DNA of 64,000 nucleotides from Craspedostauros australis (Eukaryota > Bacillariophyta > Bacillariophyceae > Mastogloiales > Achnanthaceae). A model generated the notes under the pieces. It was not told the origin of the DNA. It saw only the letters and a list, made by a program, of their open reading frames with translations, and did not search any database. This document shows positions 6,239 through 35,067 of the stretch, in pieces; position 1 is the stretch's first letter; each line of letters begins with the position of its first letter. The position numbers and the translations under genes are program-made. The stretch covers positions 62,001 to 126,000 of the forward strand of contig JAMXDE010000065.1 in the NCBI GenBank assembly GCA_026770025.1, written 5' to 3'.

Positions 6239-6275
6239 CTAGAGATTGGTGCACTTGTACTTTATCGACTGCGAC

Positions 6276-6291
6276 TATTCTGTGTACTCTA
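6276..6291. repeat. LINE target-site duplication, 3'-side copy
   Basis: The 16 bases TATTCTGTGTACTCTA are identical to 14433-14448 and occur once in the empty site at 32,075-32,090 of copy B. They therefore mark the exact insertion point of the LINE. Confidence 0.93.
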
Positions 6292-6519
6292 ATAATAATA
6301 ACACACTGACTATCCCTTGCGCACAAGGTTGCCTCGAAGGCTTTAAAGTCGCCTGCGTCCGACGAGCCCTAACGGCCGATCGTGCTAGAACGACTGCTGC
6401 AAGTATCTCACATCCTTGCCTTCCACAGCTTGCCATCACCGTGGGTCACATAAAACGTACCGCACTGGGCACCCGATATCATATCCGCCGTGCACTTCAC
6501 TCTTGCATGTATTCCCGCG

Positions 6520-9500
6520 TCACCTCCTCGCTTGCTTACACCTTGCTCTCCCTAACTGGAGACTGCTGGCGCGCTTCCTCGTCTGCCTCCTCCTTCTGCC
6601 GTTATCCTCCCCCACTCGCCCGTTGCCTTGCCGACCATCATCGCATTCGATCGTCGCCTCCTCCCTTGCCTGTGCCCGTCGCACTCTTGCGGCCGCCGAT
6701 CCTATCCGAGCCGCCGCCACGTGCCGCACCCATGCTAGTTGCTCATCCACCGGCATTCTCCGGATTTGCTCCTCGCTGGTGTTCTTCATCAGACCGACGT
6801 CCCTCTGTTGTAGGCCGTCGCTGCCTTGATTCCAAGTGGCAGTAACCTCGACCTGTGCTTGCCTCTCTCTCATGGTTTGCTTCTTCCAGGCCTCATCGTC
6901 GTGCAGCGCCATATTACGCGCTTGCCAGGCAGCCCACCGCACTTCCCACAACCCTGCGATCGCTCTCCCGATCCAGTTCGTGGCCGTACCTCGTGCCCCC
7001 ATGCTGCGCATCGTTTCAGCCTGTACCTGCCGCCACTGCCTCGACCACCTACCTAGCACCATCTTGTCCCACCCGATCTTGCCTTGTGCCACTGCTGCCC
7101 GGTGCACGTCGGACCACCCTTGCGGCTCCGATTCTGTGCCGTCCGACCACATACGAACCTGCCGGACAATCTCTCGCACCATGCGCGGGTCCCCTCCTTG
7201 CGTTCGCATAGAGTCCTCCCACTTCGCGAGGGCCGTGTTTCGTACCTGTACTGCAGCCGGGTGCTGACACCTCATCACATGAGCAGTGTCTTCCTCCTCC
7301 GCCTTGCACACTGGGCACAAACCATCACCCCAGAACTTCCACTTCCGCATATTCCGTCCAACTGGCCCGAAGTGCGCGGCATGCTTTACCACCCAGCGTC
7401 TCCGGTTGCCGCCCAGCCCTTTCAACGCCGCCCGTATAGACTGGCCGTCGACGTCACTCATGCCTTCCCGATCCATCTTGCCAGCGCGCTGCTGCCACCT
7501 CTCCGTCTTCTGCCGTTGCACATGCTCGCGAACAGTATCCTTGGCGTTCACACATATCTTGTCATGGCCAATCCACACAGACCATTCGCTGTCGTGCAAC
7601 TCTGCATCCTTTGCCGGCTGCCCTCTGCCTTGCTCTTCCCCTGCCATCCTGTCCACATCATCGTTCCAGTACGAGAACTCATCAATCTTGACTCCTCTGG
7701 CCCTCTCCAGCTGATGCCCATACACATGTCGATACACCAGCTTCACCGGCATCATTCGTTGCTCTCGGCGAATCGCCCGCAGCAGGTCAAAATGCTGGGC
7801 CTTCACTGGTACGTCCCTATCGTACTCAATGGCATGGATCCCTGCCATTCGGTTGTCGCATGCGACCACGATTGCCGCTTGCTCTGACCACCCTCGCTTC
7901 TGCCGGCTTACCACCTCCCGTGCAGTCTTCAGGGCGTAATAAATGCCCCCTAGCTCTGCCCGATAGGCGCTCTGCACCTCTGGTCGCCCCAACACGTCGC
8001 CTGCCATCCGAAGGTAGCCTTCGCGTCGTCCTCTGACATTGAGCGAGAACGCCGCTGTGCTCCTTCCATCCTTGAATGACCCATCTGTGCTTATCACCGC
8101 CCGTCCTTGCTGTACAGCATGGATCCATTCCCCTAAATCATTTCCAGGATCTCGTCCTGCTCTCTCTTTCGTCTGCACATGCGCCCTTCGTCCTACTTCG
8201 ACCACGTACACTTTGCCGTTCGCCTCTCGCAATTTCACCTCTCTCCCGTGGACCTCCTCTGATGACACCGTTTCGCGAGCTCGTCGGAACCCCTGCATCC
8301 CTGCGACGTCTCCTTCGCTCGCTTCCCATTCCTCCCACTCGTGTTCCGCTGCCAACGTCCAAACTTTCTGTTTCGACGAATTCCACACTGCGTACCACCT
8401 GCGTGCTTCTGCATCTCCTTGATCCGTGCTGCTGCCGCGTGCCATTGCTACCGCTCGTCGCCACAGAGACCAGTCGGCATCCGGTACTGCACCTTGCCTC
8501 GGCCATCGAATGTGTCGCCGCCCGCTCCACCGTCCTCGTTCTGTGTGCCATCGCAATACTTCCTCGCCGCCGCGAACATCATCCACAGTCATGACTTTCA
8601 TCAATATCCTGCACCGGTTGATTCGCCTCAACTGATCTTTGGTGTACCCCAGCCTGTCTAGCTCCTCCATCAGCCACCTGTCATTCCGTCGTACCTTCCT
8701 TGCCCCTTCGGTCTTTTCGCAGATGCTAATCCCGTATTCTTGAGCTTCCTGCCACACTGTCTTGATCCAACATTCTGTAGCCAGGAACCCCCACTTTCGG
8801 ACATCCATCTCGAAGAGCGGCTTGCCCGTTCCTATCTCGACTTTCATCGCCTCCATCGACCCTCTTAACAGCCGCCCTGTCATGGTATCGCGCTCGCCAT
8901 GCTCCATCACCATTGTAATGTGCTCCATTACTTGGGTTGTATGGAGCTCGTGTATGTCAGCCCCTAACTGACCTGCCGCAGCGTTGATCATTGCCCTCGG
9001 GAAACCACGATTGTAACCCATTTTGGACATCATCACTTTCCATACCGGCTGCATCACCGCTCTGCATTCCTGCTCTGAGAGTTGTGCTACTGGTAGAACG
9101 TACTCCAGCTTTTTTAGCAGAACCGTGCTCATCGCCGCTGTCGCATCCTGTTTGCGTATGCGTTTGGTACGGACCTTCTCCGCCCACCCTCTCGCTTTTG
9201 ATGCCATCGCCTCATGTATCGCCCTGCCGTTGCCGTCTGGGGCCAGCCGCACCCCGAGGGTCTCGAAAGCCTCATGTGCCTCGCTTCGCGGCATATTCTG
9301 TCTGCTGTCGCTGTTGCCTCGCATGGATATCGTCGCCGGCACTTCGGCATTTGTGGCATACCTCCATTCTCCGTTCTGCTGCCACGCGAAGTCGATTGCC
9401 CACCACATGCTTTTTTCAACCACCAGCGCCCCACCTGTCGCCCGCACCAATCGCTCCCATTCGTCCACGCTATTCTGCATCCTTTCCACGGCATCCTCTA

Positions 9501-12312
9501 TCCTTTCGCCGTTTCTTGCATTTACCACCAAATCCGTATCGTCAACGAACGCGTATCCGACAATCCCGACCGTCTGGTTGCTCGTTGCTGTTTCGAATTG
9601 CGCCATATGACCTTCTTTTCTCATGATGTCGAGCATCGGGGATGATATGACAGCCCATATCACTGGTCCGGCCCCGTTGCCTTGGTAGATTCCTTGCATA
9701 GGCACCCGGTTATGTCGCCCGCTGTATGCCGCGGTGGAATCGCCATACACAGTTCTGATGTAATGTTCCAGCTGCTGCAGTGTCGTGAACATGCTTCGCA
9801 CTTCCGTTTGGGCCACTCCTTGTCGTTGCAATCCCATGGATGCGATCGAGTGTACAATCCTATCGTAACAGCTCTTTAAGTCGTTCGAGCACAGCAGCCC
9901 CGGCGTCCTGGTTTGTCGCAACCAGTCAAGCGTCAACTGCTTGTTGAGGGCGTGCTCGACTGCCTTGTGTCCCTTTCGACTCCCGTATTGTTCCTCTGCG
10001 AAACCGTGCTGTTTTTCGGCTTGCACCGCAGCCTTCCTGCCGATCGCTTTGTTGCAGAAGTTGAAGTCTGCTTCGAAGAGCACAATTGTCCGTAGCTTGT
10101 CCACTCGGTAGCTATTGGCTTTCTTCATGAGTTCCACGTCCACCCCTTGTTTCCATCTCTTGTACGAATACCCCGACTTCATTGCAATCGACGACATACT
10201 TGCTTCGAATTCTGAATTGCTCCGACGCTTCGCTATGGCCTTGAAGTGCCCAAAATGCAGCCCTGACGGTCCTGCCGATGTGTCTTCTTTGCACTTGTCC
10301 CATCCGGCTTGGAACTCATCCGTTGTCATCCCTGCCGGTATGTCGTTGGTCGCCACCGTCTGTAGTCCTTCGATGAGCTTCCGCGCTCCTACATCCACCC
10401 ATTTCGACACACTGTACTGTCCTCGTAATGTAGCTTGTGCTGCGTCCGACGTGCCGAGGAATCCGAAGTCCCGTGCCAGTTCTCCGTACATAAAGGGTGT
10501 ATTCTCCGTTTGCCGGAACCTGCGCTGGTTCTCTTCCATGCAACCTCTTTCAATTCCTCCTTGCTCTGTTCGCTCTTCCCATACTCCGTGAGCGTTGGGT
10601 GCAATAACCATTGATATTCCCCCAGCTCCATCGCCGCCGGATGCTTGCCTGATTCGTCGGTACATCGCTCGCACTGCTTCTTTCCTTCGCAGTTGCTGCA
10701 GCTGTGATGCTGTCCGTTGCCCTCTGTTTTTCTTCATTTTCTTTGGTCTACCTTGCGCACTCTCCTCCTTTTTCGCCCTCGCGGTTGCTATCCTCTCCAG
10801 CCACTCGCTTCGCGACTCTGTTGCTCTTTTTCGGAATATTTTGAGCGCGTCGTATGCCTTTGTCTGTTCTTGTCGCACGTCTTTCGCTTCCATTCTCACC
10901 ATCTCTGCTATCCTTCGGTCCTCCTTAGCTCGTTTGGCTTGTCTCTGCAACAGGGATGTTGACACCTTCCTGCCTGCCTGCTTCCTGCTAATGTTATTCC
11001 ATAGCCCGATCCTCGCCTCAATCTGCTTGTACTCTCTAGAGTATGGAATGCCTCCCATTCGAAGCTTCCTGCACCTTCTGTCAGCTTTCCAAATCCCCGA
11101 TACTCGTATGTCATCCAGCGCTTCTGCCTCTTTCTCCATCTGCTCGTCCCATCCTTCCTTCGTTCGTCGCTCTAGTGTGATTGCTCTCTCCCTCGCATTG
11201 TGCTGGCTCAGATGTCTCTCATATTCGTCATTAAATTTTTCGACGATCCTCGGGTCCTCTGTCTTCACTCTTCGCGCTACTGCCCTTCGTAACGGTGGCA
11301 TTTCTTGCCCCAGTACTCCTGCCATGCTTACTTCCAGCCACAGGCACCGGTGGTCTGCGCATCTTTCCTGAATCCCTTCATCCCACCTGGTCAACCCGGC
11401 TCTCTCCACTTTGATGGACCGCGTCACGAATATCCCGTCTATGGGCTTTTTCCCAAGCCGATGTGTTGCTGTAGCACCGGCTTCATTTTCGTTTGCGTCC
11501 ATCGCGTTAACCATATCCGTGTTCTGCAGGAATTCCATGATCCTTTTCGACCGGGTGTCTTCGTTGCAGTCCATCATCACCACGATGTGGTCGCCGAGAG
11601 CGCTCCATTCCTTGACCTGCTTTTCCAGGTCCTCCAGCATGCGATTTCTTGGTTCCACGTCTTTGCCTTTTTCGTTGTAATATTTTCGCTGCTGTGCATA
11701 CGTGTTCAAGACTCCTTTTGTTCGTGGCCGACAAGGTCTGTATGCCACCACCACGCGTAGTCGTTGCTTCTTTGCTCCTCGGTACAGCTGCCACACCCAT
11801 CGCCCTAAATTCGCATCGTCCCACCCAGCCTTGGCCATCCTTATAGCCGCTTGGTATCGGCTAACAATTGCAGTTCCTCCCCATTGTTTGCTTCTCATCA
11901 CTTCGTCGTTGGTGTTGTTCGCTGTTGTTGCTTGTGTGGTCCCCGTTGGCCACCACTCTCTTATTCGATGTTTCAGTCGCGCCTCTTCCTGTACTCCTCG
12001 CCAATCGACGTTCACCTCAGTTATCCCAAACACATCAAACTCGCCTTCGTTCATCCATTGCTTTAATCCTTCATCCACGTTGCTTGGCACCCTACGGAAC
12101 CCTCCGAAGTTCTGCATGCCAATCCTCAGCCTTCCTTGCCTCTTCCTCATCATCATATCCCCCAATCTATCTTCGCACCCTTCCTCCTTACTTCCCTCAT
12201 TGCTGCAGCCGCTGCGATGCGGTATATCGTATGCGTCCGCAGGAGCATTTGGGCTCAGGTCATTCTGCTGTGCCTCCACCAGCGGTCGACCCTGCCCTCT
12301 CTGCTCAACCAT
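6520..12312 (-). CDS. LINE ORF2: apurinic-like endonuclease, reverse transcriptase, RNase H, zinc finger
   Basis: A frame of 1,930 codons. Reading from ATG 12312: residues about 65-330 form an exonuclease-endonuclease-phosphatase domain with FDVFGITEVN (catalytic Glu), MDCNED (Asp-x-Asn) and ADHRCLWLEV (terminal Asp-His). The RT domain has NDLKSCYDRIVH (motif A), PMQGIYQGNGAGPVIW (motif B) and GYAFVDDTDLVV (motif C, FVDD rather than YADD). RNase H follows with AVISTDGSFKDG, SAYRAELGGIYYAL, IVVACDN and a late YGHQ...YWNDDVDRMA. Near the C-terminus CPVCKAEEEDTAHVMRC is a CCHC-type finger. The chosen ATG overlaps the ORF1 stop (ATGGTTGA), which suggests coupled termination-reinitiation. The frame can be extended 12 codons upstream, but only to a TTG codon. 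Confidence 0.93.
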   Translation of the reverse strand: MVEQRGQGRPLVEAQQNDLSPNAPADAYDIPHRSGCSNEGSKEEGCEDRLGDMMMRKRQGRLRIGMQNFGGFRRVPSNVDEGLKQWMNEGEFDVFGITEVNVDWRGVQEEARLKHRIREWWPTGTTQATTANNTNDEVMRSKQWGGTAIVSRYQAAIRMAKAGWDDANLGRWVWQLYRGAKKQRLRVVVAYRPCRPRTKGVLNTYAQQRKYYNEKGKDVEPRNRMLEDLEKQVKEWSALGDHIVVMMDCNEDTRSKRIMEFLQNTDMVNAMDANENEAGATATHRLGKKPIDGIFVTRSIKVERAGLTRWDEGIQERCADHRCLWLEVSMAGVLGQEMPPLRRAVARRVKTEDPRIVEKFNDEYERHLSQHNARERAITLERRTKEGWDEQMEKEAEALDDIRVSGIWKADRRCRKLRMGGIPYSREYKQIEARIGLWNNISRKQAGRKVSTSLLQRQAKRAKEDRRIAEMVRMEAKDVRQEQTKAYDALKIFRKRATESRSEWLERIATARAKKEESAQGRPKKMKKNRGQRTASQLQQLRRKEAVRAMYRRIRQASGGDGAGGISMVIAPNAHGVWEERTEQGGIERGCMEENQRRFRQTENTPFMYGELARDFGFLGTSDAAQATLRGQYSVSKWVDVGARKLIEGLQTVATNDIPAGMTTDEFQAGWDKCKEDTSAGPSGLHFGHFKAIAKRRSNSEFEASMSSIAMKSGYSYKRWKQGVDVELMKKANSYRVDKLRTIVLFEADFNFCNKAIGRKAAVQAEKQHGFAEEQYGSRKGHKAVEHALNKQLTLDWLRQTRTPGLLCSNDLKSCYDRIVHSIASMGLQRQGVAQTEVRSMFTTLQQLEHYIRTVYGDSTAAYSGRHNRVPMQGIYQGNGAGPVIWAVISSPMLDIMRKEGHMAQFETATSNQTVGIVGYAFVDDTDLVVNARNGERIEDAVERMQNSVDEWERLVRATGGALVVEKSMWWAIDFAWQQNGEWRYATNAEVPATISMRGNSDSRQNMPRSEAHEAFETLGVRLAPDGNGRAIHEAMASKARGWAEKVRTKRIRKQDATAAMSTVLLKKLEYVLPVAQLSEQECRAVMQPVWKVMMSKMGYNRGFPRAMINAAAGQLGADIHELHTTQVMEHITMVMEHGERDTMTGRLLRGSMEAMKVEIGTGKPLFEMDVRKWGFLATECWIKTVWQEAQEYGISICEKTEGARKVRRNDRWLMEELDRLGYTKDQLRRINRCRILMKVMTVDDVRGGEEVLRWHTERGRWSGRRHIRWPRQGAVPDADWSLWRRAVAMARGSSTDQGDAEARRWYAVWNSSKQKVWTLAAEHEWEEWEASEGDVAGMQGFRRARETVSSEEVHGREVKLREANGKVYVVEVGRRAHVQTKERAGRDPGNDLGEWIHAVQQGRAVISTDGSFKDGRSTAAFSLNVRGRREGYLRMAGDVLGRPEVQSAYRAELGGIYYALKTAREVVSRQKRGWSEQAAIVVACDNRMAGIHAIEYDRDVPVKAQHFDLLRAIRREQRMMPVKLVYRHVYGHQLERARGVKIDEFSYWNDDVDRMAGEEQGRGQPAKDAELHDSEWSVWIGHDKICVNAKDTVREHVQRQKTERWQQRAGKMDREGMSDVDGQSIRAALKGLGGNRRRWVVKHAAHFGPVGRNMRKWKFWGDGLCPVCKAEEEDTAHVMRCQHPAAVQVRNTALAKWEDSMRTQGGDPRMVREIVRQVRMWSDGTESEPQGWSDVHRAAVAQGKIGWDKMVLGRWSRQWRQVQAETMRSMGARGTATNWIGRAIAGLWEVRWAAWQARNMALHDDEAWKKQTMRERQAQVEVTATWNQGSDGLQQRDVGLMKNTSEEQIRRMPVDEQLAWVRHVAAARIGSAAARVRRAQAREEATIECDDGRQGNGRVGEDNGRRRRQTRKRASSLQLGRARCKQARR

Positions 12313-14362
12313 TCGCAGGCGCCGTTTGCACAGCACCTGCTTCCTCAATTTCGCGCGGGTCCCGCGGGTTGTCGGCCGTTGGGTTTCCCGTTATGTCACG
12401 CTGGGCCTCTGGTGGCCTTACTTCCTGCTCCGGCTGAGCTTCCTTCGCTCTTGCCTTGAGCTCCTTGTTTTCCTCCATTGCTGCTGCCATCATCGCTTGC
12501 ATTTGTGCCATCTGTTCTCGCAATTCTTTCATCTCTTTCTTCACCGTTTCTTTGGACCTCCGTGTACTCCCGGACAATGTCGACAGGGCTGACCGCTGGG
12601 TTCGGGTCTCCAGCATTTCTGCTAGCTTGGCTTCAATGGACACCAACCTCTTGCTCGTTCCTGCTGTCCTTGATGTCTTGCAGGTCGACCTTGATGCTAT
12701 GGTGCTCGCGTCCTCCTCTGCCTCCCTTGCTGCCGCCTTCCTGGCTTCTTGTCTTTCGGAGATCTTTCTCCATTCGGATGCATTGCGCAGTGAAGGGATT
12801 GTGTCACTGTCGCCGTAGTCTTTCTCTGGTCTGGCATCGCACTCCCGTGTCGCTAGTGGTTTCTCATCTTCACTTTCCACTGGTTGTGTGAAATGCATGT
12901 CGTCGTCTCCTGCTAAGGCTGCCTCGACTGCTTTGTCCTTCTCCGAGATCACTCTCTTTGCCTCCGCATCCCACTTCATGGTTTTGGCTTCCGTTCGTGC
13001 CAGGGATGTGAAATACATCTCCATGCCCACTCCGTATTCTGCCACCAACCTTACCAGCAACCCTTTGATCATCATCTTGGCCTCCATCTCTTTGGCTGGA
13101 TGGAATTGGAATACATACCCGGCCCCTCTCCACTTCTTGTTCACTGAAGTGAATAATGGCGTGTTTGTATTCCCAGTTGTCGCCTTAATTTGCATGATCA
13201 TGGATCGTAGGGTCTTGTTGTACCCCACTGGTATTGCCTCCAATGTCTCGTTGATGAGGTCGTAAGATGTGACTGCCTGTGCTTCTTTGCACCACCCTGC
13301 TTGTCTCTCTCTCAGGGCGAACCATCCACTTCTCACGTCTGTGTTCACGATTCCTGCTAGCGGTGTCACCATTCGCATTCTGATGCCCAACGGAAACTTC
13401 CTTGACTCGGTGCCGTAGTAGTGCATCAATGTTTCTGTGACCACATCTTTGTCTTCTGTTGCCGTCTCCACATGCAGCGCTCTTGCATCGTTCTCCGTGT
13501 TGCGGTCTGGATCAAACTTGGTGCCGTCAGAGATCCTTTTCCAGTTTGTAGCAACCGGTCGCTTCGTGCGCTTTGTCAGCTCTTCCTCCAGCTCTTCCAC
13601 TCCCACCTGTCTGGTAGAATAGAGCAGCCATCCGATGGTTGTCGTCGATGGTGCCTGGATTTTGGCTACGCTGAACCTTCCTTGCTCCACCGCGAAGAAG
13701 TCGTTGAGTTCTTCGGCAATCTCACTCACTTTGCCCTCGCATTCGATTCTGACTTTGTAGTACGCCTTGGCTCTTGTCGCTCCGTACAGGGCTTTCGCTC
13801 CCTTGAAGAATTTCTTCAAAGTCGTCATGTCCTTTGGAAAATCGTCCAGAGCATGGATTCGGATGTAGTCTTCCTTTGTGTCCCAAGGCAGGAGTCTTGC
13901 TGTTGTGTTGACCTGCTGGATGGTTCGCAAGAAATCCTTGCACGAACCTATGACTGCTTCCATTGCCACCTTGACATCTCTTGACCCCGCTCCTCCGTTC
14001 ACCATGATCTGCAGGTCGCAGTACTTTATGTCCTGCTTCCTTGTTACCACATTGACCACCGGATGGACAATTTCTGTCCATGGTTCCCCGGCATTGGAAT
14101 TGTTGCCCACTTGTGTCTCCTCGTCATTGCCCACTGACATTGTGTCTTGAGTATCCTCGTTCTCCACCTGCGTTTCATTGCCTGCCTCGTCTGTGCTTGC
14201 CATGTCGTTGTCCATTGCGGCTTCGTTGCTTTCTTCCGTCGATTCATCCGCATTCAGCCTCTTGCTTGGCTGTTCGTTGTTGCTTCCTTGCGTTGGGCTC
14301 ACGTCTGCTCTCTTTCGGTTTCGTTGGCCTATTGCTTCCTCCGTGTTGATGACCACCACCAT
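12305..14362 (-). CDS. LINE ORF1 protein
   Basis: A frame of 685 codons from the first ATG inside the element. The upstream open stretch belongs partly to the host repeat. The N-terminal 130 residues are acidic and low-complexity (Glu, Asn, Thr). The middle is globular (for example RKFPLGIRMRMVTPLAGIV and GAGYVFQFHPAKEMEAKMMI). The C-terminal 130 residues are a charged Ala/Glu/Arg region with coiled-coil character (KEMKELREQMAQMQAMMAAA), consistent with the trimerising RNA-binding role of LINE ORF1 proteins. No CCHC zinc knuckle is evident. The function as RNA chaperone or particle protein is inferred from position and coiled coil only. Confidence 0.82.
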   Translation of the reverse strand: MVVVINTEEAIGQRNRKRADVSPTQGSNNEQPSKRLNADESTEESNEAAMDNDMASTDEAGNETQVENEDTQDTMSVGNDEETQVGNNSNAGEPWTEIVHPVVNVVTRKQDIKYCDLQIMVNGGAGSRDVKVAMEAVIGSCKDFLRTIQQVNTTARLLPWDTKEDYIRIHALDDFPKDMTTLKKFFKGAKALYGATRAKAYYKVRIECEGKVSEIAEELNDFFAVEQGRFSVAKIQAPSTTTIGWLLYSTRQVGVEELEEELTKRTKRPVATNWKRISDGTKFDPDRNTENDARALHVETATEDKDVVTETLMHYYGTESRKFPLGIRMRMVTPLAGIVNTDVRSGWFALRERQAGWCKEAQAVTSYDLINETLEAIPVGYNKTLRSMIMQIKATTGNTNTPLFTSVNKKWRGAGYVFQFHPAKEMEAKMMIKGLLVRLVAEYGVGMEMYFTSLARTEAKTMKWDAEAKRVISEKDKAVEAALAGDDDMHFTQPVESEDEKPLATRECDARPEKDYGDSDTIPSLRNASEWRKISERQEARKAAAREAEEDASTIASRSTCKTSRTAGTSKRLVSIEAKLAEMLETRTQRSALSTLSGSTRRSKETVKKEMKELREQMAQMQAMMAAAMEENKELKARAKEAQPEQEVRPPEAQRDITGNPTADNPRDPREIEEAGAVQTAPANG

Positions 14363-14432
14363 CTGTCCCGGCTCTTCTCCTTCCTTCCCTTCGTCCTCCT
14401 TCGCTTCCGTTCCCTCGTTCTTTTCTTCTTCA

Positions 14433-14448
14433 TATTCTGTGTACTCTA
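14433..14448. repeat. LINE target-site duplication, 5'-side copy
   Basis: Perfect 16-bp match to 6276-6291. Downstream the sequence continues (CTCTATTCAAG) exactly as in copy B at 32,091. Confidence 0.93.
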
Positions 14449-14623
14449 CTCTATTCAAGTCAAATACGTAATCAATATCGGTGTTTTGTCTCTCAACTCG
14501 TAGACAGAGGGAGAGCCATCCAGTAGGCAAACACAGATTCTACTGTCACAATGCAGGTACGGATGCTCGTGCAGGACAGCAATCTATCTTTCTCTCCCTT
14601 CCCTTCGATGTGTCGGTTCCATT

Positions 14624-16492
14624 TCAGCTCCATGTCTTATTCAGCGCCTCCAGCAGACCATCCCATGTTGTCACACCTTCGAACAGTCGGCCCATGTCGA
14701 CCTCGCAATACTCGCGCTTCACATACGCAGTGCGGTGAAACGCCGAGCGGTGCGCTGCTTCGCCATCGGGAGACACGCGCCGCTCTGGCATCCATTCCTT
14801 CTCAATGGCCAGCGACATGTTCAGGAGCTCCTCCAACTCGTTGTCGGGCGGACAAATCAAAGGGAAGTCTGCCAATTTCTTGTTCAACGCTTTTCCAAGG
14901 TGTTGGTGTAGCCGTCCGTCCAACTTCCGCTTCCTCATTGTGCGTTGCTTCTCTTCGCTGATGACACCACGCGCGGCAGCGGCAAATACGATATCTTGGC
15001 ACACAGACGTCAGCATGTCAATGACCATTTGCGGGGGATTCTCATGCTTCTGTTTGATATATTCGCATGATCGAGGGGCATCTGGGACATGGTCGCACAG
15101 GAACTGTTCCGAGACATGACGTTTGCCATGGAAATCCATGATTTGGATGGGAAAGCCAGAGTTTCTCCAGGCTGAGATAACGCCATCGATGAAGACAAAA
15201 CTTGCTGCAACGGTCATGGTGTGGGTGCCTGTGCTTGTATTTTGCAGATGATTTTGAATCGGCGCTGAGCTTTCAGTCATCCATCCCCATATCTTTTTCC
15301 ATGCCGGACTGTATCGCTTCCCACGTTGCGTGGGCCAAGCAGAGTATGGGCGGTAGTGCACAGTAGTGTATGCACGGGAGTACTTCCAGGCGCTGAGCAT
15401 CCAGTCAAAGACGTGACGGTAGGTCACGATGACTGTCACATCCCAACCTTCCAGAAGATCCCTCAAGTTCTGAAAGTACATCGGATTTCCATACAGCCCT
15501 TCGGATCTGAACAAGGGACGACTCGAAACTTGTTCTTCGCTGAATATCAGAGAGATGCGCCGCTTTTTTGCAACATCCAGAAGCTCTGTGATATGTTTCA
15601 AATCCTCCGGTACCTCGACTGGCAATTGCGGGGACAAGGGCAGCGAGGATGGTTCCAATGCTGCCATGCCTGGACTATGTGTGCTGGTTTGATTCCTCGG
15701 CAGCAACGATGCTTTCTTGCTTTCCACATACCTTGGATAATGTTCCAACATGACGTTGGCATTGAAAGCTTTGTCCAAGCAATCAAGAGAAAATCCAAGC
15801 TCTTTGGCTGGTTCGTGAGGGCTGCCTGTTCCATAGTACCAGTAATGATCTTGGATCAGAAGTTCGTTGTTCACGAGTTCCAATAGGTTGGTTTGCAGTG
15901 AGGTTGTGGCAGTCTTGGGCGGGCCAACATGCAACACCAGATGAGGCTTCTTCACTTCTTCTGTGGCTGCGGGCGAATCCAATGTTGCTGCATGCGTAGG
16001 TCCTGCAGAAGTTTCAGGCCGCGGAGTACTTTCTGTGGTGTCGGAATGCATCTTCACAGCCTCCGGAATCGAAGAAGGCCGTTCATCTTCATCTTCTTCA
16101 ACAGCATGCAGTGACGAGGATGAATGAGATGAAACAGGCCCCAGCATGCTCCCAATTTGGTTGGCGACCAGGAACTGGGCAATAGAGAGGAGGACTGAGA
16201 TTGCAACGATCGCTGCAATCCCCTTCTTCGCTGCCCTCAGCTTTGTCGTCGTCATGCTCGCAGCTGTCAAGATTGACTTGTTTCGGTTTGGTGTTTGGCG
16301 ACTGTTGATTCCGCCATCATGGTTGCCTCGTTTATTGGAGACTGGCGCGCGCTTGCCATGAGAGTCTTCACAAGCGTCCTTGTTGTGGTGCAGATGATGC
16401 TGGTGTGCGAGCACGCTTACGCATCCATCAGACTGCGCTCTACCTCCATTCGACGCTTTCGAAGACCTTGGCGCTTCGGAATTAGCATCCAT
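14624..16492 (-). CDS. Golgi-type sulfotransferase-like protein, copy A
   Basis: A 622-codon frame read leftwards from ATG 16492. The N-terminus is cytoplasmic and His/Asn-rich (HQHHLHHNKDA), followed by a signal-anchor helix around residues 115-140 (GIAAIVAISVLLSIAQFLV) and a Ser/Glu-rich stem: type II membrane topology. The lumenal part begins HLVLHVGPPKTATTSLQ, the PAPS 5'-phosphosulfate loop (PKTxTTSL), and later has VIVTYRHVFDWMLSAWKYSR, which fits the 3'-phosphate site (Arg...Ser). It should transfer sulfate from PAPS to a glycan or protein in the Golgi; the acceptor is unknown. The frame is open and nearly identical to copy B except for three patches of clustered changes. The LINE lies beyond its 3' end and the copia element upstream of its start, so the coding region is undamaged but its promoter may be separated from the gene. 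Confidence 0.87.
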   Translation of the reverse strand: MDANSEAPRSSKASNGGRAQSDGCVSVLAHQHHLHHNKDACEDSHGKRAPVSNKRGNHDGGINSRQTPNRNKSILTAASMTTTKLRAAKKGIAAIVAISVLLSIAQFLVANQIGSMLGPVSSHSSSSLHAVEEDEDERPSSIPEAVKMHSDTTESTPRPETSAGPTHAATLDSPAATEEVKKPHLVLHVGPPKTATTSLQTNLLELVNNELLIQDHYWYYGTGSPHEPAKELGFSLDCLDKAFNANVMLEHYPRYVESKKASLLPRNQTSTHSPGMAALEPSSLPLSPQLPVEVPEDLKHITELLDVAKKRRISLIFSEEQVSSRPLFRSEGLYGNPMYFQNLRDLLEGWDVTVIVTYRHVFDWMLSAWKYSRAYTTVHYRPYSAWPTQRGKRYSPAWKKIWGWMTESSAPIQNHLQNTSTGTHTMTVAASFVFIDGVISAWRNSGFPIQIMDFHGKRHVSEQFLCDHVPDAPRSCEYIKQKHENPPQMVIDMLTSVCQDIVFAAAARGVISEEKQRTMRKRKLDGRLHQHLGKALNKKLADFPLICPPDNELEELLNMSLAIEKEWMPERRVSPDGEAAHRSAFHRTAYVKREYCEVDMGRLFEGVTTWDGLLEALNKTWS

Positions 16493-26559: not shown

Positions 26560-26567
26560 TATAAAAG
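26560..26567 (+). promoter_or_regulatory. TATA-box-like element in the transposon debris
   Basis: TATAAAAG is a near-ideal TATA box. It sits about 25 bases before a frame (26,590-26,889) without ATG. Confidence 0.35.
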
Positions 26568-26589
26568 GACCCCTTCATGATCCAGCTGA

Positions 26590-26889
26590 GGAATCTTTGC
26601 TCATATCCTATTTCACCCGATACAACATCCGCGGCGTGTTCCTGATGCTCTGAGGACTAGTGTAGTCAGATACGACCAGGGACTTCGACCAACGCGCATT
26701 TTGCATCTTTTGGAGATCCTGACTGCCATATCGGAAGTCGTTGTTGGTCTCCAACCAACCCAACGTGCAATCGCAATAGTTCTGTGTAGACTGCGTGGAG
26801 ACCTTCTATTGGACAACAAACTGCTGATCCATCTCCATGATACAGTGATCAAGAGGTCTCTGTCATCGATATTGGCACCAGAGCCTTGA
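26590..26889 (+). pseudogene. Open frame without start codon, possible transposase remnant
   Basis: A 99-codon frame bounded by TGA on both sides and lacking ATG. It contains VVGLQPTQRAIAIVLCRLRG, loosely like the xPxERLAxxLRxLAxG helix that precedes the catalytic core of Harbinger-type transposases. The resemblance is weak and the frame is short; it could be chance. Confidence 0.25.
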
Positions 26890-27849
26890 ACAAGCTATGA
26901 ATCAGCAGGGAAAAAGTGCTTGCGCATATGTTACCGGACCTCTGTTAGTGGCAAAGTTGAGACAGAAGAGATGGCAGCGAAACTCTCAGAACACGAAGCT
27001 CCTAAGAGAAGAAAGAGGGATGTGCGTTGCGTGCAACTCAGATCACACTCATTAACGATCCTATCAACTTTTGGTCTCAACAAGTGATGCGATAACCTGC
27101 AACGAAGCATTCAGATCATAGCAGCCTAAACTCGAACTCTATTCTACAGAAGAGAAGCCGATTCTGTCATGTTGGTCGTCTTTCTGTGTAGGTCACGAAC
27201 GAGTCACGATTACCAATGTGAAATCCGAACGTGAGTGCCACATGTGACATGAACACAGGGGTGTGAATGTGAAATGCGATAGGCCTCTAATTATTGGTAA
27301 TTATTGGTAACCATTGGCATATCCCTAATGAGTTTTTTGCTGACAAATTTGGCACATGTGCCAAATTTGTCACTTCTTTTGGGTTCGCATCAACAGCGCA
27401 CGTTGGCCTCCACGTGTAGGTGGCAAGATCGCATGCCAGACCAACATGGTCCTCCAGCGTGGTGGCTTCTCTCATTGTTTAACTGGAACCTTCTGGCGCA
27501 GGCAATTTCCGCTGCAAACAAGGCCACATAAGGAATTCAGAACCCTAAGGACATACCCCATAAATGAATTATTTATCAACAAGCCGGAACGCTTCGTGCA
27601 TAGACACTGTTGAAAGACAATGATTGGATGAAAATCACAGACTTCGCTTGGAAATAGCACTGAAACAAGTTCCGTGAAGCATCGAATAGTCCCACCGTCG
27701 TCGGAAACCAACAGAAGCACAAACGCCAATCCTGGAGAAACAACAATCAAGAGTTTTGAGGACACAAAAGCGCCTCTGCACGATAACGCTGAGTGGAAGT
27801 CAAAAAACTTTATCAGTACCACCTCAGCTGGCCGATGCGAACACACAGG
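26890..27849. other. Non-coding debris with a perfect palindrome
   Basis: AT-rich with tandem ATTGGTAA-type words at 27,291-27,318 and a perfect 32-bp palindrome at 27,342-27,373 (half-site TGACAAATTTGGCACA). The adjacent ATATCCCTAATGAG at 27,330-27,343 recurs inverted near 30,275-30,290. No gene seen. Confidence 0.55.
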
Positions 27850-28085
27850 ATGTGACAAATGTGGCACATCGATCCAAATTTGTCACATCAATGGAGGTGG
27901 TTGTAAGGGTCATAATTTCATAATCTGGGCCTCTCGGCCAATCATATCGCTTCATTTAGGGCACAAGATACCTTTTGGCTCCTCACTGAATTGGGGGTCA
28001 ACGTCGACATAACGTCAATCGAAATTATTATGAACTCATTGTCCGCGAATATGAACGCTCCTCGGAGACCGTTCATAATTTCATA
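27850..28085 (+). repeat. Dispersed repeat family, member 3
   Basis: Begins with an imperfect palindrome (GTGACAAATGTGGCAC ... AAATTTGTCAC, 27,853-27,888), then ATGGAGGTGGTTGTAAGGG, TCATAATTTCATAAT, ACAAGATACC, ATAACGTCAATCGAAA and CCGTTCATAATTTCATAAT. It has the same block order as the inverted member at 26.1-26.3 kb. Confidence 0.65.
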
Positions 28086-28276
28086 ATCTCTCTGACGAGT
28101 CGTGGTAGTCCAAAATTCGTTCTCAACGGCTACATCGGAGCGAAACTTTGTGCTCACACCAGATTGATCCGATGTGCTCTACTGCAAATTGATTATTCGT
28201 TCCCACCCGTTGCATCGCAACTTTCTGTTGCAATTTAACTCCTTCTTTAGATGCACCTAGTGTACCTCTGTATTTA

Positions 28277-28670
28277 TCATCTGATGAACTCCAGCGGATC
28301 ATATCTTCCCACCATCATCGCCAGCGCCAGGCTGCCTTGATTGCCATCATCCTTGTTGTTCTTGAGCATCTTGCTGCACAGCAGCACCTCCTCATGTGTG
28401 CTGTGGCACACTGCATCCTTGACACTATGCCTACAAGTGTGCGAAGGGGTTGGTACCTCAGCTCCGGCATCTTCCATCATCAAGCGCTATCTTTCTGGTC
28501 TTTGATTTGAGAGCATGGCGACTTCATGGAGTTCTACAACTTCATCGGACTCACCAGGCCATCGTTCGATCGATTGGCTGAAGTGCTAGATCCCGGCATC
28601 GAAGCGTTGCCCATTGATCCGCGAGCCACGGCGCCACCACGACCATCTGATATTCGCTGTTGTTGTTGGA
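28277..28670 (+). pseudogene. Decayed transposase fragment, copy 2
   Basis: One frame from 28,277 gives LLMCAVAHCILDTMPTSVRR followed by GWYLSSG and stops at TGA. A second frame from about 28,511 gives EHGDFMEFYNFIGLTRPSF, then DRLAEVLDPGIEALPIDPRA. Both parts match copy 1 (24,716-24,945, opposite strand) in order, so this is a frame-shifted remnant of one gene. The DDE catalytic part is absent or unrecognisable downstream. Confidence 0.55.
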
Positions 28671-30129
28671 GCGAAACCAGTCACGAGGGCTCGAGTGAGT
28701 CATGAACAGCAGCGAGCAACAACAGCCACAGAAACGAGCACGAAAGGTGCAACACAGAGAAAAGGACATCAGAGCGAAACAACATGAAACAGACACAATC
28801 TGTCAAACATTGCATTAGATACAAACTTATACCCAACTACCGTCTCCGTTTCAATAGTTGTAAGTTCGACTACATCAATGTCACTGCCATTGCAATGAAG
28901 TATCTGACTTTCAAGTCAGCATTGAAGAACCATTTCTGGTAGGATCTGCCTTCGTTGGAAGGTTGGAAGAGATCTTGGAGGATGTGGAGAGCAATGGACA
29001 TGGCAGAGGCTGAAGTTGAGGCAATGGAAGAGCACTCTTGCAAAACAGGGAATATGGATGACAATTGCAACCTGACATACAAAGTGATGGCTCTTGAGAA
29101 GAAAGCAAAGGAAGATGTGGAATGCATCAACGATACCCAGAAGCAAAGAAGGTGCAAGTGGGAAGCTACAATGGCCATTTGTATCATCAAAGCATTGACA
29201 ATGAGACAATTGGCAAGCAAACAATTGCAGTGAATGCTGCGACAGTTGGGATAGGTACATTGAGCATTCAATGAATGAAGGAGTGGACACCAGCAGCACA
29301 GCCAATGGAGAAAGGAAGATGGGGGAAGCAGGATAGTGGCAACGCAAAGTGAATAGTATGGAGATGAACTGCGGATGGTGAGGAGCAACACATATGTACA
29401 AACATACACATCCACCTGGTATATGGAAGTTGAAAACTGCACGTGGGCAAGACACATGTATTTGTGAATGTGTGAAGCAGCAAGAGATGTGCGAAACTGA
29501 AGCTGTGGATGTGTAAGCATACAGCCCCATTCGTCGAGGTCAAGTATCATCCTGCCAATCATGAATTGGACAACATAACATTTTTAGCAATCTATGTGGC
29601 ATGTTGTCCATTAGGGTTAGATATATTTAGATAGCTCTTACAACACAAGTACATGGCTTGTGCTCACTGTGGACAGACATGATGCCATCGCTTTTGGTCG
29701 ATATCAGACTGCGATGGTATCCAACAGTGTGGGTTGTGATGTTGTGAGAGCTTTGGTGTTGCGTTGATTCCTCACATTGTGGACGATTGGGCTCTGCTGT
29801 GTGCTTCCTCCCTTGTGTGCATTGTGTCAAGTAGCACAGTGTTGTTTGTGGCATCCCTACATGTCCACACACGTTCACGGCAACAGCAACACTTGCGAAC
29901 ACTAACTATGCAGCATAATATTATATAATACAATGGAGCACAGTGACTCATCCTATGGTATGAGAAGTATACTATACTCTCCACAATATAATAGGATGTA
30001 CATAATGCTTATCTTAACAATCCGCAAATGATGACATGACAATCCTGAACGGGGTGATACGACGAAAGTGGCCGTGCAGAGAAATGGTGATGTAGGGAAG
30101 GAATCAATGGATTGACGGGCACTGATTTA
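28671..30129. other. No supported gene
   Basis: A 92-codon plus ORF (28,955-29,233) rich in Glu, Ala and Lys (EAEVEAMEEHSCKTG) and antisense ORFs are present, none recognised. The stretch 29,910-30,000 is very AT-rich with GTATACTATAC-like short palindromes. Confidence 0.35.
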
Positions 30130-30262
30130 GTCTTGGGGGCAGAATTGACTACGGGACTGATGGCCGTGACTTGAAATCGGGGTGAACGAGGCTGACCAGT
30201 TATGAAATTATGACCCTTACAACCACCTCCAATGTGAAGTGCCAAATTTGTCACATCGGGGG
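30130..30262 (-). repeat. Dispersed repeat family, member 4
   Basis: On the minus strand: GTGACAAATTTGGCACTTC, ACATTGGAGGTGGTTGTAAG, GGTCATAATTTCATAACTGG, then GCCTCGTTCACCCCG. The first part matches member 3, the last part matches member 1. Confidence 0.65.
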
Positions 30263-32037
30263 CCCAAAATCTCATTAGGGATATCGCCGACGGCACAAGC
30301 TGCCATTTGATGAGTTGATGCCCGTTTCCTGACATCTTTACATTATTAGAAAGAGGAGAGTGAGAGCTCTCTGTTGATGTGTTCATTGTTGGCAAACGAT
30401 CTCCGCTTTCCGTTCATCTCGATGCCTCTTTTTACCCTTTATCGGCCTTTTTCACACGGACGACGTACGGACGTGATTTCGGAATTTTTTCGTTGGTAAG
30501 CATTGGTAACCACGTAGAGTCTACGACGTTCTGGTACAGAAACTTGCTGCGTTTTGGTCCAATAGCGACCGACTGTCTTCCAAAGACCCGCATCCAATTC
30601 TGTTTCGTCTATTGGTCAAGTGAATGACATGGTTGTATTCGTCACTTCATTCTGCTTCGGGTGGTGTGTTGGTCAGCGGTCCAGGATGCCTTTGTGTGTT
30701 GCTTTGGGTGTTTGAAGTTAGTCACTAATGCTCGTGACAGCCATGATCATCAATCCGTGAACGCACAAAAGTTCGCGCCAAAAAAATATCGCGCGTTTTT
30801 ACGTGTTGTTGATTCGAACTGTTTTGTTCGCAGGAGTCTCTTTACTTTATGCAAGGTTGTGCATCGCCCTGACGTCGGATCATCGTTCCGTTGCTTTCAG
30901 GTGACGCAGAATCCTCTCTTGCACCTGCCCATGTAGCCTTGGTCTTCGAATCTCACTTCCTCCAAAGATATACCAATTGCAACTTGTTCGTCAATTTTAG
31001 CGTGCACTATCCTCGCGAGGAAACATCGCTTCCTGATCAGGCGCCAAAACTGTCTTCATTGACACCGGTTGCTACACTCATGCGATGGGCAGGGTCGTTG
31101 ACGCAGTCGCTGTTCGTGCTCTATCAAACCGCGTTCGAACCGTTCTGTGCAGGTAGCCTGATGTTCTATACTGATCTCCAGCACAACTATGGCCAATCGA
31201 ACACCGGCCTCTACATTGCGCAGGTGACACATGCTAAAATGCGCGCACATGGCGTGGAAATTTTGCGCGGCGCAGTTGCACATGCTCAGCGATGCGGAAG
31301 ATCCAAAGAAGAGCGGTGAGAGCATGGCGAGATTGGACTCCTCAGTGCGAAACAGTCGACTCTGCTCTATTCTGGACTGCTATTGTGTGCTGCTGCTAAC
31401 CAAGGGATCATTGCTCTCCCAAGCAGGATGGATGCAACGATACACATACATCCAAGTTGCTGTTGCCAAGACTGTTGCTGGCGTACAGTATTCTGGAGTA
31501 GAACTGAAACACTATTGCAGAACTAATCAACCATATCATCAACTACAATGCAATACGATGAACGAAGCCACAATGGATGACATCAGGATGTAAGGAACTG
31601 GTAATGGCATGTGAGAAACACATCGGTCGGTACCACATTGTTTTGTGATCATTTCCATCGCGTGTTAACACGCCGTGGGGCACAGAGAAATTCTCCACGA
31701 TACATCGTGGTGATTGGCATTCGTGAATGGGAACAGCGAGTGCATGCTCCAAAGAAACGAACAGATCTCAACCACTACCCATCCAATCACCACCAAAGTT
31801 GGAGAGGGTGATTAAAAGCCACACATGCGAATGCTCACGAAAGGGGAGCTCAAACAAATGGAGCGGCATAAACTTGCCGATGAGGTTTGTGGCAGAAAAG
31901 GTGTTTTTTGGGCCGCTTCGAGTGGGACTGACGTACAAAATGTACCGTCGTCTACAGAGAAACTGACTCATACGACTAGTTACCAATTGTTACCAATGGT
32001 TACCAAAAAATTTGGCCTCCACCCAAGCCAAAAGACA
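30263..32037. other. No supported gene
   Basis: A 142-codon ORF at 30,891-31,319 (contains RWAGSLTQSLFVLYQTAFEP) and an overlapping one at 31,231-31,593 show no recognisable family. Words of the type ATTGGTAAC recur at 30,497-30,512 and 31,980-32,005, next to the left end of copy B. Confidence 0.35.
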
Positions 32038-32265
32038 CTAGAGATTGGTGCACTTGTACTTTATCGACTGCGACTATTCTGTGTACTCTACTCTATTCAA
32101 GTCAAATACGTAATCAATATCGGTGTTTTGTCTCTCAACTCGTAGACAGAGGGAGAGCCATCCAGTAGGCAAACACAGATTCTACTGTCACAATGCAGGT
32201 ACGGATGCTCGTGCAGGACAGCAATCTATCTTTCTCTCCCTTCCCTTCGATGTGTCGGTTCCATT

Positions 32266-34134
32266 TCAGCTCCATGTCTTATTCAGCGCCTCCAGCAGAC
32301 CATCCCATGTTGTCACACCTTCGAACAGTCGGCCCATGTCGACCTCGCAATACTCGCGCTTCACATACGCAGTGCGGTGAAACGCCGAGCGGTGCGCTGC
32401 TTCGCCATCGGGAGACACGCGCCGCTCTGGCATCCATTCCTTCTCAATGGCCAGCGACATGTTCAGGAGCTCCTCCAACTCGTTGTCGGGCGGACAAATC
32501 AAAGGGAAGTCTGCCAATTTCTTGTTCAACACTTCTCCAAGGTGTTGGCGCAGCCATCTGTTCAACGTCCGCTTCTTTGTTGTGCGTTGCTTCTCTTCGC
32601 TGATGACACCACGCGCGGCAGCGGCAAATACGATATCTTGGCACACAAACATCAGCGTGCCAATGACCATTTGCGGGGGATTCTCATGCTTCTGTTTGAT
32701 ATATTCGCATGATCGAGGGGCATCTGGGACATGGTCGCACAGGAACTGTTCCGAGACATGACGTTTGCCATGGAAATCCATGATTTGGATGGGAAAGCCA
32801 GAGTTTCTCCAGACCGAGATAACGCCATCGATGAAGACAAAACTTGATGCAACGGTCATGGTGTGGGTGCCTGTGCTTGTATTTTGCAGATGATTTTGAA
32901 TCGGCGCTGAGCTTTCAGTCATCCATTTCCGTATCGATTCCCAAGTTGGACTGTATTGCTTCCCACGTTGCGTGGGCCAAGCAGAGTATGGGCGGTAGTG
33001 CACAGTAGTGTATGCACGGGAGTACTTCCAGGCGCTGAGCATCCAGTCAAAGACGTGACGGTAGGTCACGATGACTGTCACATCCCAACCTTCCAGAAGA
33101 TCCCTCAAGTTCTGAAAGTACATCGGATTTCCATACAGCCCTTCGGATCTGAACAAGGGACGACTCGAAACTTGTTCTTCGCTGAATATCAGAGAGATGC
33201 GCCGCTTTTTTGCAACATCCAGAAGCTCTGTGATATGTTTCAAATCCTCCGGTACCTCGACTGGCAATTGCGGGGACAAGGGCAGCGAGGATGGTTCCAA
33301 TGCTGCCATGCCTGGACTATGTGTGCTGGTTTGATTCCTCGGCAGCAACGATGCTTTCTTGCTTTCCACATACCTTGGATAATGTTCCAACATGACGTTG
33401 GCATTGAAAGCTTTGTCCAAGCAATCAAGAGAAAATCCAAGCTCTTTGGCTGGTTCGTGAGGGCTGCCTGTTCCATAGTACCAGTAATGATCTTGGATCA
33501 GAAGTTCTTTGTTCGCGAGTTCCAATAGGTTGGTTTGCAGTGAGGTTGTGGCAGTCTTGGGCGGGCCAACATGCAACACCAGATGAGGCTTCTTCACTTC
33601 TTCTGTGGCTGCGGGCGAATCCAATGTTGCTGCATGCGTAGGTCCTGCAGAAGTTTCAGGCCGCGGAGTACTTTCTGTGGTGTCGGAATGCATCTTCACA
33701 GCCTCCGGAATCGAAGAAGGCCGTTCATCTTCATCTTCTTCAACAGCATGCAGTGACGAGGATGAATGAGATGAAACAGGCTCCAGCATACTCCCAATTT
33801 GGTTGGCGACCAGGAACTGGGCAATAGAGAGGAGGACTGAGATTGCAACGATCGCTGCAATCCCCTTCTTCGCTGCCCTCAGCTTTGTCGTCGTCATGCT
33901 CGCAGCTGTCAAGATTGACTTGTTTCGGTTTGGTGTTTGGCGACTGTTGATTCCGCCATCATGGTTGCCTCGTTTATTGGAGACTGGCGCGCGCTTGCCA
34001 TGAGAGCCTTCACAAGCGTCCTTGTTGTGGTGCAGATGATGCTGGTGTGCGAGCACGCTTACGCATCCATCAGACTGCGCTGTACCTCCATTCGACGCTT
34101 TCGAAGACCTTGGCGCTTCGGAATTAGCATCCAT
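32266..34134 (-). CDS. Golgi-type sulfotransferase-like protein, copy B
   Basis: A 622-codon frame with the same start context, signal anchor, PAPS loop (GPPKTATTSLQ) and downstream RHVFDWMLSAWKYSR motif as copy A. Most of the protein is identical; differences cluster in three C-terminal patches: GKQYSPTWESIRKWMTES here against GKRYSPAWKKIWGWMTES in A; IGTLMFVCQD against IDMLTSVCQD; and TTKKRTLNRWLRQHLGEVLN against TMRKRKLDGRLHQHLGKALN. The promoter side is undisturbed here, so this copy is the likelier to be normally expressed. Substrate unknown. Confidence 0.87.
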   Translation of the reverse strand: MDANSEAPRSSKASNGGTAQSDGCVSVLAHQHHLHHNKDACEGSHGKRAPVSNKRGNHDGGINSRQTPNRNKSILTAASMTTTKLRAAKKGIAAIVAISVLLSIAQFLVANQIGSMLEPVSSHSSSSLHAVEEDEDERPSSIPEAVKMHSDTTESTPRPETSAGPTHAATLDSPAATEEVKKPHLVLHVGPPKTATTSLQTNLLELANKELLIQDHYWYYGTGSPHEPAKELGFSLDCLDKAFNANVMLEHYPRYVESKKASLLPRNQTSTHSPGMAALEPSSLPLSPQLPVEVPEDLKHITELLDVAKKRRISLIFSEEQVSSRPLFRSEGLYGNPMYFQNLRDLLEGWDVTVIVTYRHVFDWMLSAWKYSRAYTTVHYRPYSAWPTQRGKQYSPTWESIRKWMTESSAPIQNHLQNTSTGTHTMTVASSFVFIDGVISVWRNSGFPIQIMDFHGKRHVSEQFLCDHVPDAPRSCEYIKQKHENPPQMVIGTLMFVCQDIVFAAAARGVISEEKQRTTKKRTLNRWLRQHLGEVLNKKLADFPLICPPDNELEELLNMSLAIEKEWMPERRVSPDGEAAHRSAFHRTAYVKREYCEVDMGRLFEGVTTWDGLLEALNKTWS

Positions 34135-34165
34135 CGTTGAAGAGGTGAGCACAGATCTTGGTGGT

Positions 34166-34234
34166 GTTGAGTGCTGTAGTTGAGTGCTGTAGTTGACTCC
34201 TGTAGTTGACTGCTGTAGTTGACTGCTGTGGTTG
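34166..34234. repeat. 13-bp tandem repeat upstream of sulfotransferase B
   Basis: Five units against four in copy A, in the presumed 5' UTR; no effect on the ATG-initiated frame. Confidence 0.8.
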
Positions 34235-35067
34235 TGCTTGTCGTACCAGTGTGCTTGTTCGTCTCTCGTCAGTGTGACAACTTCGATCGCTCTCTCTCTC
34301 GTTCGCTCTCTCTGGAGAGTCCTCGACTGGTGTGTGCCCGCACAAGCTGTGAGTATCCGTAGCTCGAAGTCAACGGTTTTGTCCGTACAACGAAGGATTG
34401 TTGAATTGGCGGCGATGTGTGATGTACTGGTGGAGAAACAGCTCTTGCGTCGGCCTCTACCTGGCCCTGAACCAAAGGATACGCCAGATGCAGTGCTGTG
34501 AGATTGTTGTTGGCGTTGTAATCTGATATATTACACAGGATTTATGGCTGGTTGTTGTCCTCTGTGTGTTTGCTGTCGAGTGTTTTGTGCTGCCCAGCAT
34601 GATGTTGGTAGTGGCTGCCAGCCGTTTTATCGAAACGCCGAACGACGGCATTGGTTCTTGCACGTTCCGCGCCATCTGCATCAACACGAACCCTCGAGGG
34701 GAGAGGGAACGCTGACCGTGCCAAGAAGGGGACGAAACCTCGTCGTGATGAATTGTGGCAGCGCCGAACAGTCCACAGATCTTGTGCGCCGCTTTCGTCC
34801 CACATCTTGTGACTCGCGCATGTCCGGAATTGGCGTCATTGCGCAAACGGACATTTCGTCGGAAATGGTTTGGCGCGCTTTGTGCATTCTGAATCAGGGG
34901 TGCGCCGTGTTGCGCGCACCTCGTTTGTCGGCGGACAGAGAATCACTCGACCTCGGCATGCGGCGAGGAAGCAACAACAGCGACAACGATGACAACATCA
35001 ACCATCACAAGCACATTGAACGGAGGACAACGAACAACGAACAATGAACGCTGAATGGAGCAGAGGA

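Follow-up and report, generated by a model that had tools for sequence, protein, structure and literature searches.

Two copies of a gene-bearing segment in Craspedostauros australis lie between transposon target sites and meet at a mosaic terminal inverted repeat element

We analysed a 64,000-bp stretch of the Craspedostauros australis genome (contig JAMXDE010000065.1 of assembly GCA_026770025.1, positions 62,001 to 126,000 of the forward strand), hereafter the window, in which a gene-bearing segment of 2.8 kb is present twice. Copy A is interrupted by a long interspersed nuclear element (LINE) and by a copia-type long terminal repeat (LTR) retrotransposon. Copy B is uncut at both sites, and the two copies are separated by a nest of five terminal inverted repeat (TIR) elements, E1 to E5. 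Both edges of the segment are target sites of elements of this nest, and the junction between the copies is best read as the result of recombination between two copies of E1. We tentatively favour an unequal crossover between two haplotypes as the history of the pair, with a confidence that stops just short of even.

Results

The edges of the shared segment are transposon target sites

The two copies were compared by BLASTN. Copy B matched three intervals of copy A (6239-6291, 14433-17074 and 24155-24269; 97.7-100% identity) and no other place in the window, and the overlaps between the three intervals are target duplications. The pieces are as follows.

6239 to 6291, plus strand: copy A, piece 1, 100% identical to 32038-32090; its opening CTAG (6239-6242) is the empty E5 target.
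14449 to 17070, plus strand: copy A, piece 2, 97.7% identical to copy B; the A gene (minus strand) has its entire open frame here.
24161 to 24267, plus strand: copy A, piece 3, 98.3% identical to copy B; its terminal ATT is the left target duplication of E1 (GGAATT, followed by GGAGG).
32038 to 34833, plus strand: copy B, without a cut at either retrotransposon site; its opening CTAG is the right CTAG of E5.

An earlier, sequence-only reading had described the two copies as a filled and an empty version of the same retrotransposon sites. The alignment of the pieces confirmed this, since copy A is cut at both sites and copy B is uncut at both. The same reading had equated the sum of the A pieces with copy B minus one tandem unit of 13 bp. 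Copy A does have one 13-bp GTTGACTGCTGTA unit fewer, but it also has one T more; the joined pieces (53 + 2622 + 109) come to 2784 bp and copy B to 2796 bp, a difference of 12, so that the sum was off by one. There are 49 substitutions (38 transitions and 11 transversions) in 2,783 columns. Their distribution is uneven, with 28 of the 49 inside 427 bp (none of 5,000 shuffles exceeded 21) and no difference at all in the first 493 bp. Because the differences are clustered, the divergence between A and B is a poor clock and was not trusted for dating.

The left edge of the segment is the E5 target CTAG, filled at B and empty at A: CTAG starts copy B directly after E5, and it starts copy A too, but after other sequence. 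The right edge is the E1 target ATT, filled at A and empty at B. Here copy A ends in GGAATT and is followed by GGAGG of E1, where copy B reads GGAATTGGCGTC, and the ATT at 34829-34831 of copy B is the empty E1 site. Provided that E1 begins with GGAGG, the right edge of copy A is at 24267 and the GG at 24268-24269 belongs to E1. Since both of its edges are transposon targets, the 2.8-kb segment is the interval between CTAG and ATT and not the duplicated unit.

Five TIR elements are nested between the copies

The spacing between A and B is 7,768 bp and consists of five TIR elements, repeats that are present on many contigs of the 74.8-Mb genome (122 matches, from the best 40 of 538 candidates scored). 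The counts given below for other copies of E1 to E5 refer to the best-scoring copies, which were fetched. In the window, the elements are arranged as follows.

24268 to 26283: E1, with perfect TIRs of 32 bp; left duplication ATT (24265-24267), right duplication AGT (26284-26286).
26284 to 27288: E2, a TIR transposon without its left end; right target duplication AAT (27289-27291) inside E5.
27289 to 32037: E5, a TIR transposon without its left end and without the left CTAG, interrupted by E4 (and E3).
27323 to 30280: E4, with the TIR CCCTAATGAG and the duplication ATAT (27319-27322 and 30281-30284), interrupted by E3.
27893 to 30230: E3, an E1-related TIR transposon inside E4, with the duplication AAT on both sides.

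Other copies of these elements supported the assignment of ends and targets. CTAG was found on both sides in all 13 other copies of E5, two of which (L050 and L051) resemble one copy on two contigs, and the site of the E4 insertion was uncut in all 13. An E4 copy without E3 is present on contig C60. All ten other copies of E2 extend further left than the one in the window, and the right end is then followed by ANT in 10 of 10. Equal ANT duplications flank the other copies of E1 in ten of ten cases (nine by script and L036 by eye), and equal duplications were likewise seen for the six other E3 copies of which both ends were read. E1 was inserted in E2 at AGT. Because E4 and E2 lie in E5, E3 in E4 and E1 in E2, the order of insertion is E5 first, then E4 and E2 in E5, and then E3 in E4 and E1 in E2.

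Three TIR families, represented by E1, E2 and E3, have the 3-bp ANT target duplication in common. The target of PIF/Harbinger elements is TWA, from which the ANT of E1 to E3 differs, and no transposase was recognised in seven open reading frames (ORFs) of the nest by a Pfam scan; the three are accordingly left without a superfamily name. In their TIRs and in the length of the target duplication, E1, E2 and E3 are like PIF/Harbinger transposons. A 3-bp target duplication is given for PIF/Harbinger-type TIR transposons in an excerpt of a published study (PMC2213677). E5 represents a TIR family with a CTAG target duplication, possibly an unassigned one; no eukaryotic CTAG-target transposon was named in the titles and abstract openings of a literature search, a negative that says little.

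Some further arrangements of these elements were seen elsewhere in the genome. Contig C60 carries an E2 inside an E4 copy, with AAT duplicated (L046), and E4 of the window is its empty site, which makes a further filled/empty pair. At two other places (L029 and L030), E1 and E3-like ends abut with one ANT in common. Two copies of E1 at different sites (L032 and L033) are identical in sequence, and recent activity is therefore likely, to judge by these copies.

E1 at the junction has unequal target duplications and a mosaic sequence

The target duplications of E1 in the window are unequal: the one next to A is ATT, the one next to E2 is AGT, and each is a legal ANT target. ATT belongs to the flank of the gene and AGT to E2, and copy B keeps a single ATT. 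Both ends of E1 are intact, whereas E2 and E5, which lie beyond it, have lost their left ends, as an exchange inside E1 predicts. Two different and individually legal target duplications on one element are what recombination between two copies is expected to leave.

The sequence of E1 itself is a mosaic of two subtypes. It is mostly of subtype I up to 25049, mostly of subtype II from 25111 to 25807 and of subtype I again from 25852. Over 69 diagnostic columns the subtype could be called 67 times, and these calls fall into 9 runs where 33 are expected; none of 5,000 shuffles gave as few. Nine of the E1 copies serve to define the two subtypes and, by construction, are unable to reveal a switch at these columns. 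The switch at 25049-25111 was absent from all three independent copies (L034 over its full length, L089 and L090 in part), and among the best candidates no other place in the genome exceeded 94% identity across it. Together, the target duplications and the mosaic make recombination between two E1 copies the best reading of the junction between A and B. The first switch is taken as the point of exchange; the second is unexplained or pre-existing.

Several points count against this interpretation. The control for the mosaic consists of three copies only, and one of these, L034, is also mosaic and has equal duplications, so that mosaic E1 copies arise elsewhere. L034 has something like the second switch of the window E1, from II to I at 25807-25852, which the exchange model does not need. 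The inequality of ATT and AGT could also be explained by one mutation in a 3-bp repeat.

Other ways of joining copy A to E1 were considered. Joining through the microhomology TGG was the first idea and was set aside as less probable, because a chance break is not expected to land precisely on the terminus of E1 at a legal ANT target, and because the mosaic fits an exchange between E1 copies better. E1 might also have transposed from its left end in a one-ended or alternative manner, but such an event does not predict the mosaic.

Origin of the tandem pair

In the history that we tentatively favour, the A-B tandem would have arisen by one unequal crossover within E1 between two haplotypes. Haplotype 1 would have carried E1 at the ATT to the right of the gene (in the orientation of the window) and no E5. 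Haplotype 2 would have carried the E5 nest at the CTAG to the left of the gene and no E1 at ATT, the nest being E5 with E4 and E2, E4 with E3, and E2 with another E1. If these two E1 copies crossed over unequally, the product would be, in this order, the left flank, gene A, a hybrid E1, the remains of the E5 nest, gene B and the right flank. The LINE and the copia element could have entered haplotype 1 before the crossover or copy A after it. Exchange between identical sister chromatids predicts E5 beside A and E1 beside B; this is not seen. The crossover model is the simplest version and needs one rearrangement and a heterozygous locus. The sites, the target duplications, the order of nesting, the loss of the left ends of E5 and E2 and the unequal duplications and mosaic of E1 are direct observations; that two E1 copies recombined, that the duplication came about in this way and that the partners were haplotypes is inferred.

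Two observations are difficult for this history. Next to E5, copies A and B show no difference over their first 493 bp, although E5 itself has 30 private substitutions (1,756 columns); this would require gene conversion at a later time, or else the age of E5 is overestimated. Moreover, neither parental haplotype nor the reciprocal product was found in this genome. The 1,500 bp left of A and the 1,500 bp right of B each had only their own high-identity match in the genome, with two further matches of the right flank of B at 66-70%. No second haplotype was thus found in this genome sequence.

The same hybrid E1 and the same edges would result if an older and larger tandem duplication had later received E1 to the right of A and the E5 nest to the left of B, and had then lost its spacer by a deletion between E1 copies. 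No heterozygous locus is needed for this, but it takes two rearrangements and leaves the first duplication unexplained. The private divergence of E5 (30/1,756) also exceeds half the divergence between A and B (25/2,783; Fisher P 0.012), which is a weak argument against an insertion after the duplication; for E1 (20/2,001) the corresponding comparison gave P 0.42. Private substitution counts are upper bounds on age, and these tests for E5 and E1 are not used as proof. We regard the older tandem as unlikely and favour the crossover model over it. If it were true, the LINE and the copia element may well postdate the duplication, and the dating of both insertions by the sequence-only reading would stand.

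An error of assembly appears more doubtful still. Two alleles, one with copy A, the LINE, the copia element and E1 and the other with copy B and the E5 nest, might have been mis-joined through the ~2-kb E1, in which case there is no duplication. The junction does lie inside a repeat of 2 kb, of which at least 12 further copies match at 92% or above, and two of these, L032 and L033, are identical to each other. Contigs C57 (L050) and C7 (L051) carry seemingly the same E5 copy with the same flanks, and the assembly may hold some redundancy. On the other hand, E1 of the window is ~95% like the nearest copy fetched, so long reads would not easily be confused there. The E5 copy on C57 and C7 could itself reflect a contig overlap, a haplotig or a segmental duplication.

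The sequence-only reading had proposed a plain segmental duplication of 2.8 kb, bounded at 6239 and 24269, with both retrotransposons inserted after it. The clean alignment of A and B speaks for it, but it is strongly disfavoured and we give it very little credence: its ends are the CTAG of E5 and the ATT of E1, neither of which is a free end. A reading of A and B as the LTR pair of a single large retrotransposon, with 7.8 kb of interior between them, to which their direct orientation and spacing might point, was rejected as practically without a chance, as there is no target duplication outside A and B (flanks ACCAT and CGTCA), the ends are CTAG...TTGG and not TG...CA, a gene of a paralogous family lies inside A and B, and the interior is made of five TIR elements.

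Two retrotransposons interrupt copy A

The insertions in copy A and their target duplications are as follows.

6292 to 14433, minus strand: LINE (non-LTR retrotransposon), with the 3' (TTA)n tail at 6292.
6277 to 6291: first copy of the LINE target-site duplication (ATTCTGTGTACTCTA), repeated at 14434-14448 and single in copy B.
14434 to 14448: second copy of the LINE target-site duplication (ATTCTGTGTACTCTA), the repeat of 6277-6291.
17071 to 24155, minus strand: copia-type LTR retrotransposon, with LTRs at 17071-17245 and 23982-24156.
17066 to 17070 and 24156 to 24160: copia target duplication GCCAA, a single uncut site in copy B.

The sequence-only reading had called the two insertions nested and their ends fixed to the base. 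Both are inside copy A, but neither is inside the other, so that their relative order is not given. The sites themselves are resolved, with one end of each element uncertain by one base. For the LINE this is the 5' end, as a 16th shared base makes the target duplication 15-16 bp, and for the copia element the duplication can be read as GCCAA or TGCCAA.

The LINE has an ORF at 6523-12348 with a match to the reverse transcriptase domain RVT_1 (PF00078; E 7.6e-8, 32.8 bits against a cut-off of 29.6) and a weak match to Exo_endo_phos (PF03372; 20.5 bits, cut-off 24.5). No direct repeat of length 40 or more was found at its ends besides the target duplication. With RVT_1, a 3' repeat tail, a target duplication of variable length and no LTRs, 6292-14433 is a LINE. 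Relatives were sought in the genome and the best 40 of 82 candidates were scored. The only close one among the matches listed, on contig C15 (L070), has 7 differences in 4,500 aligned bases (99.84%) and ~100 bp of extra sequence upstream of the start point of the window LINE. A target duplication was not seen at this extended 5' end, and because the C15 sister continues further in this way the window LINE appears to be 5'-truncated relative to it. The divergence of 7/4,500 was compared with the 49/2,783 between A and B (P 2e-14); judged by these counts, the LINE is recent whatever the history of the pair, and clearly younger than the sequence divergence of A and B. The 3' flanks of both near-identical LINE copies start with TAGAGTA, a hint of a target preference.

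The copia element has paired LTRs of 175 bp that differ at 2 of 175 sites, a 5-bp target duplication and a match to RVT_2 (PF07727; E 2.1e-17, and 2.4e-17 in a repeat scan), and is a copia-type element by these features. Its outer CAAG end is common to all seven other copies read, the flanks of which are all different. Ty1/copia elements are matched in the LTR pair, the RVT_2 reverse transcriptase and the 5-bp duplication. No Pfam match to an integrase was found at E 1 in six minus-strand ORF pieces of 17420-23795, a scan of the larger pieces that a diverged domain may escape. The divergence of the LTRs is inseparable from that between A and B (P 0.41), and the timing of the copia insertion relative to the A/B divergence is undecided.

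A stretch of ~230 bp in copy B (34416-34654) resembles (~65-74%) repeats on contigs C1, C35, C4 and C51, where they have an LTR-like spacing of ~5.1-5.3 kb. It is perhaps an old solo LTR in the segment.

The gene in both copies

The gene carried by the segment is present as follows.

14627 to 16588 (end approximate, ~16590), minus strand: copy A gene, sulfotransferase-like as a lead only, with its frame wholly in the middle piece.
32269 to 34137, minus strand: copy B gene, with a frame of 623 amino acids, 26 residues of which differ from A.

A comparable frame of 623 residues is open in A and B. In copy A it sits between the two inserts, the LINE beyond the stop codon and the copia element beyond the other end, and neither breaks it. 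Sulfotransfer_4 was the only Pfam match and fell below the cut-off of 22.8 in both copies (A, E 0.014 and 15.7 bits; B, E 0.11 and 12.8 bits). The motif GPPKTATTSLQ is largely invariant across eight aligned members of the family. This motif may be that of a sulfotransferase, but the gene is not filed as one; the resemblance serves as a lead only. A genome search with the A/B gene listed 46 matched stretches, including the window's own three, and the others were 28-53% identical. The family is large, its ORFs are mostly unbroken and its P-loop-like motif is conserved, with no Pfam match above the cut-off.

The amino-acid replacements between A and B are clustered. When the 26 residue differences were polarised by nine paralogs (L019 dropped out), A was closer to them at 7 positions, B at 8 and neither at 11, so the differences are not one-sided decay, a point in favour of the crossover model. 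Of 34 coding changes, 28.5 are replacements where 23.5 are expected (one-sided P 0.064), and positive selection is not claimed.

Discussion

The use of related empty sites (RESites), in which an uncut paralog in the same genome reveals the ends and the target duplication of an element, is well established. Copy B serves in the same way for the LINE and the copia element. The locus differs in that the edges of the paralog are themselves filled and empty sites of two further elements.

It is also well known that dispersed copies of a transposon can give rise to tandem duplications when they recombine ectopically, as in Alu-Alu events in man and with roo at white in Drosophila. There, too, the junction is marked by a hybrid element whose target duplications are unequal and whose subtype switches. 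In the window, by contrast, the recombining elements would be TIR elements of ~2 kb with an ANT duplication, one of them inside a nest, and each parent seems to have been without the insertion of the other. Empty sites within one genome and unequal crossing over mediated by transposons are thus both established kinds, and the locus is a new instance, all of whose parts are of known kinds.

The dating of the two retrotransposons is affected by this. The sequence-only reading had placed both insertions after the duplication, which does not follow, as A and B also differ by the E5 nest and by E1, and these form the junction. A and B may be former alleles, with the LINE and the copia element possibly already on haplotype 1, and for this reason their being younger than the duplication is unproved.

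We hold it possible, though with less assurance than the crossover itself, that the window is a 'fossil heterozygote', in which a single crossover between polymorphic E1 copies would have put both former alleles in cis. The allele-specific transposons, in this equally tentative proposal, would be E1 and perhaps the LINE and the copia element on one side and the five-element nest on the other.

Whichever history applies, seven insertions and one or more rearrangements are recorded, in compact and testable form, in these 28.6 kb. The locus also shows that filled and empty paralogs date an insertion only if the two were not already different alleles at the time of the duplication. The TIR families with CTAG and ANT targets have sharp ends, and with two E1 copies identical they may serve as markers in this genome. 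If the window is a 'fossil heterozygote', its two copies would record insertion polymorphism from before the duplication.

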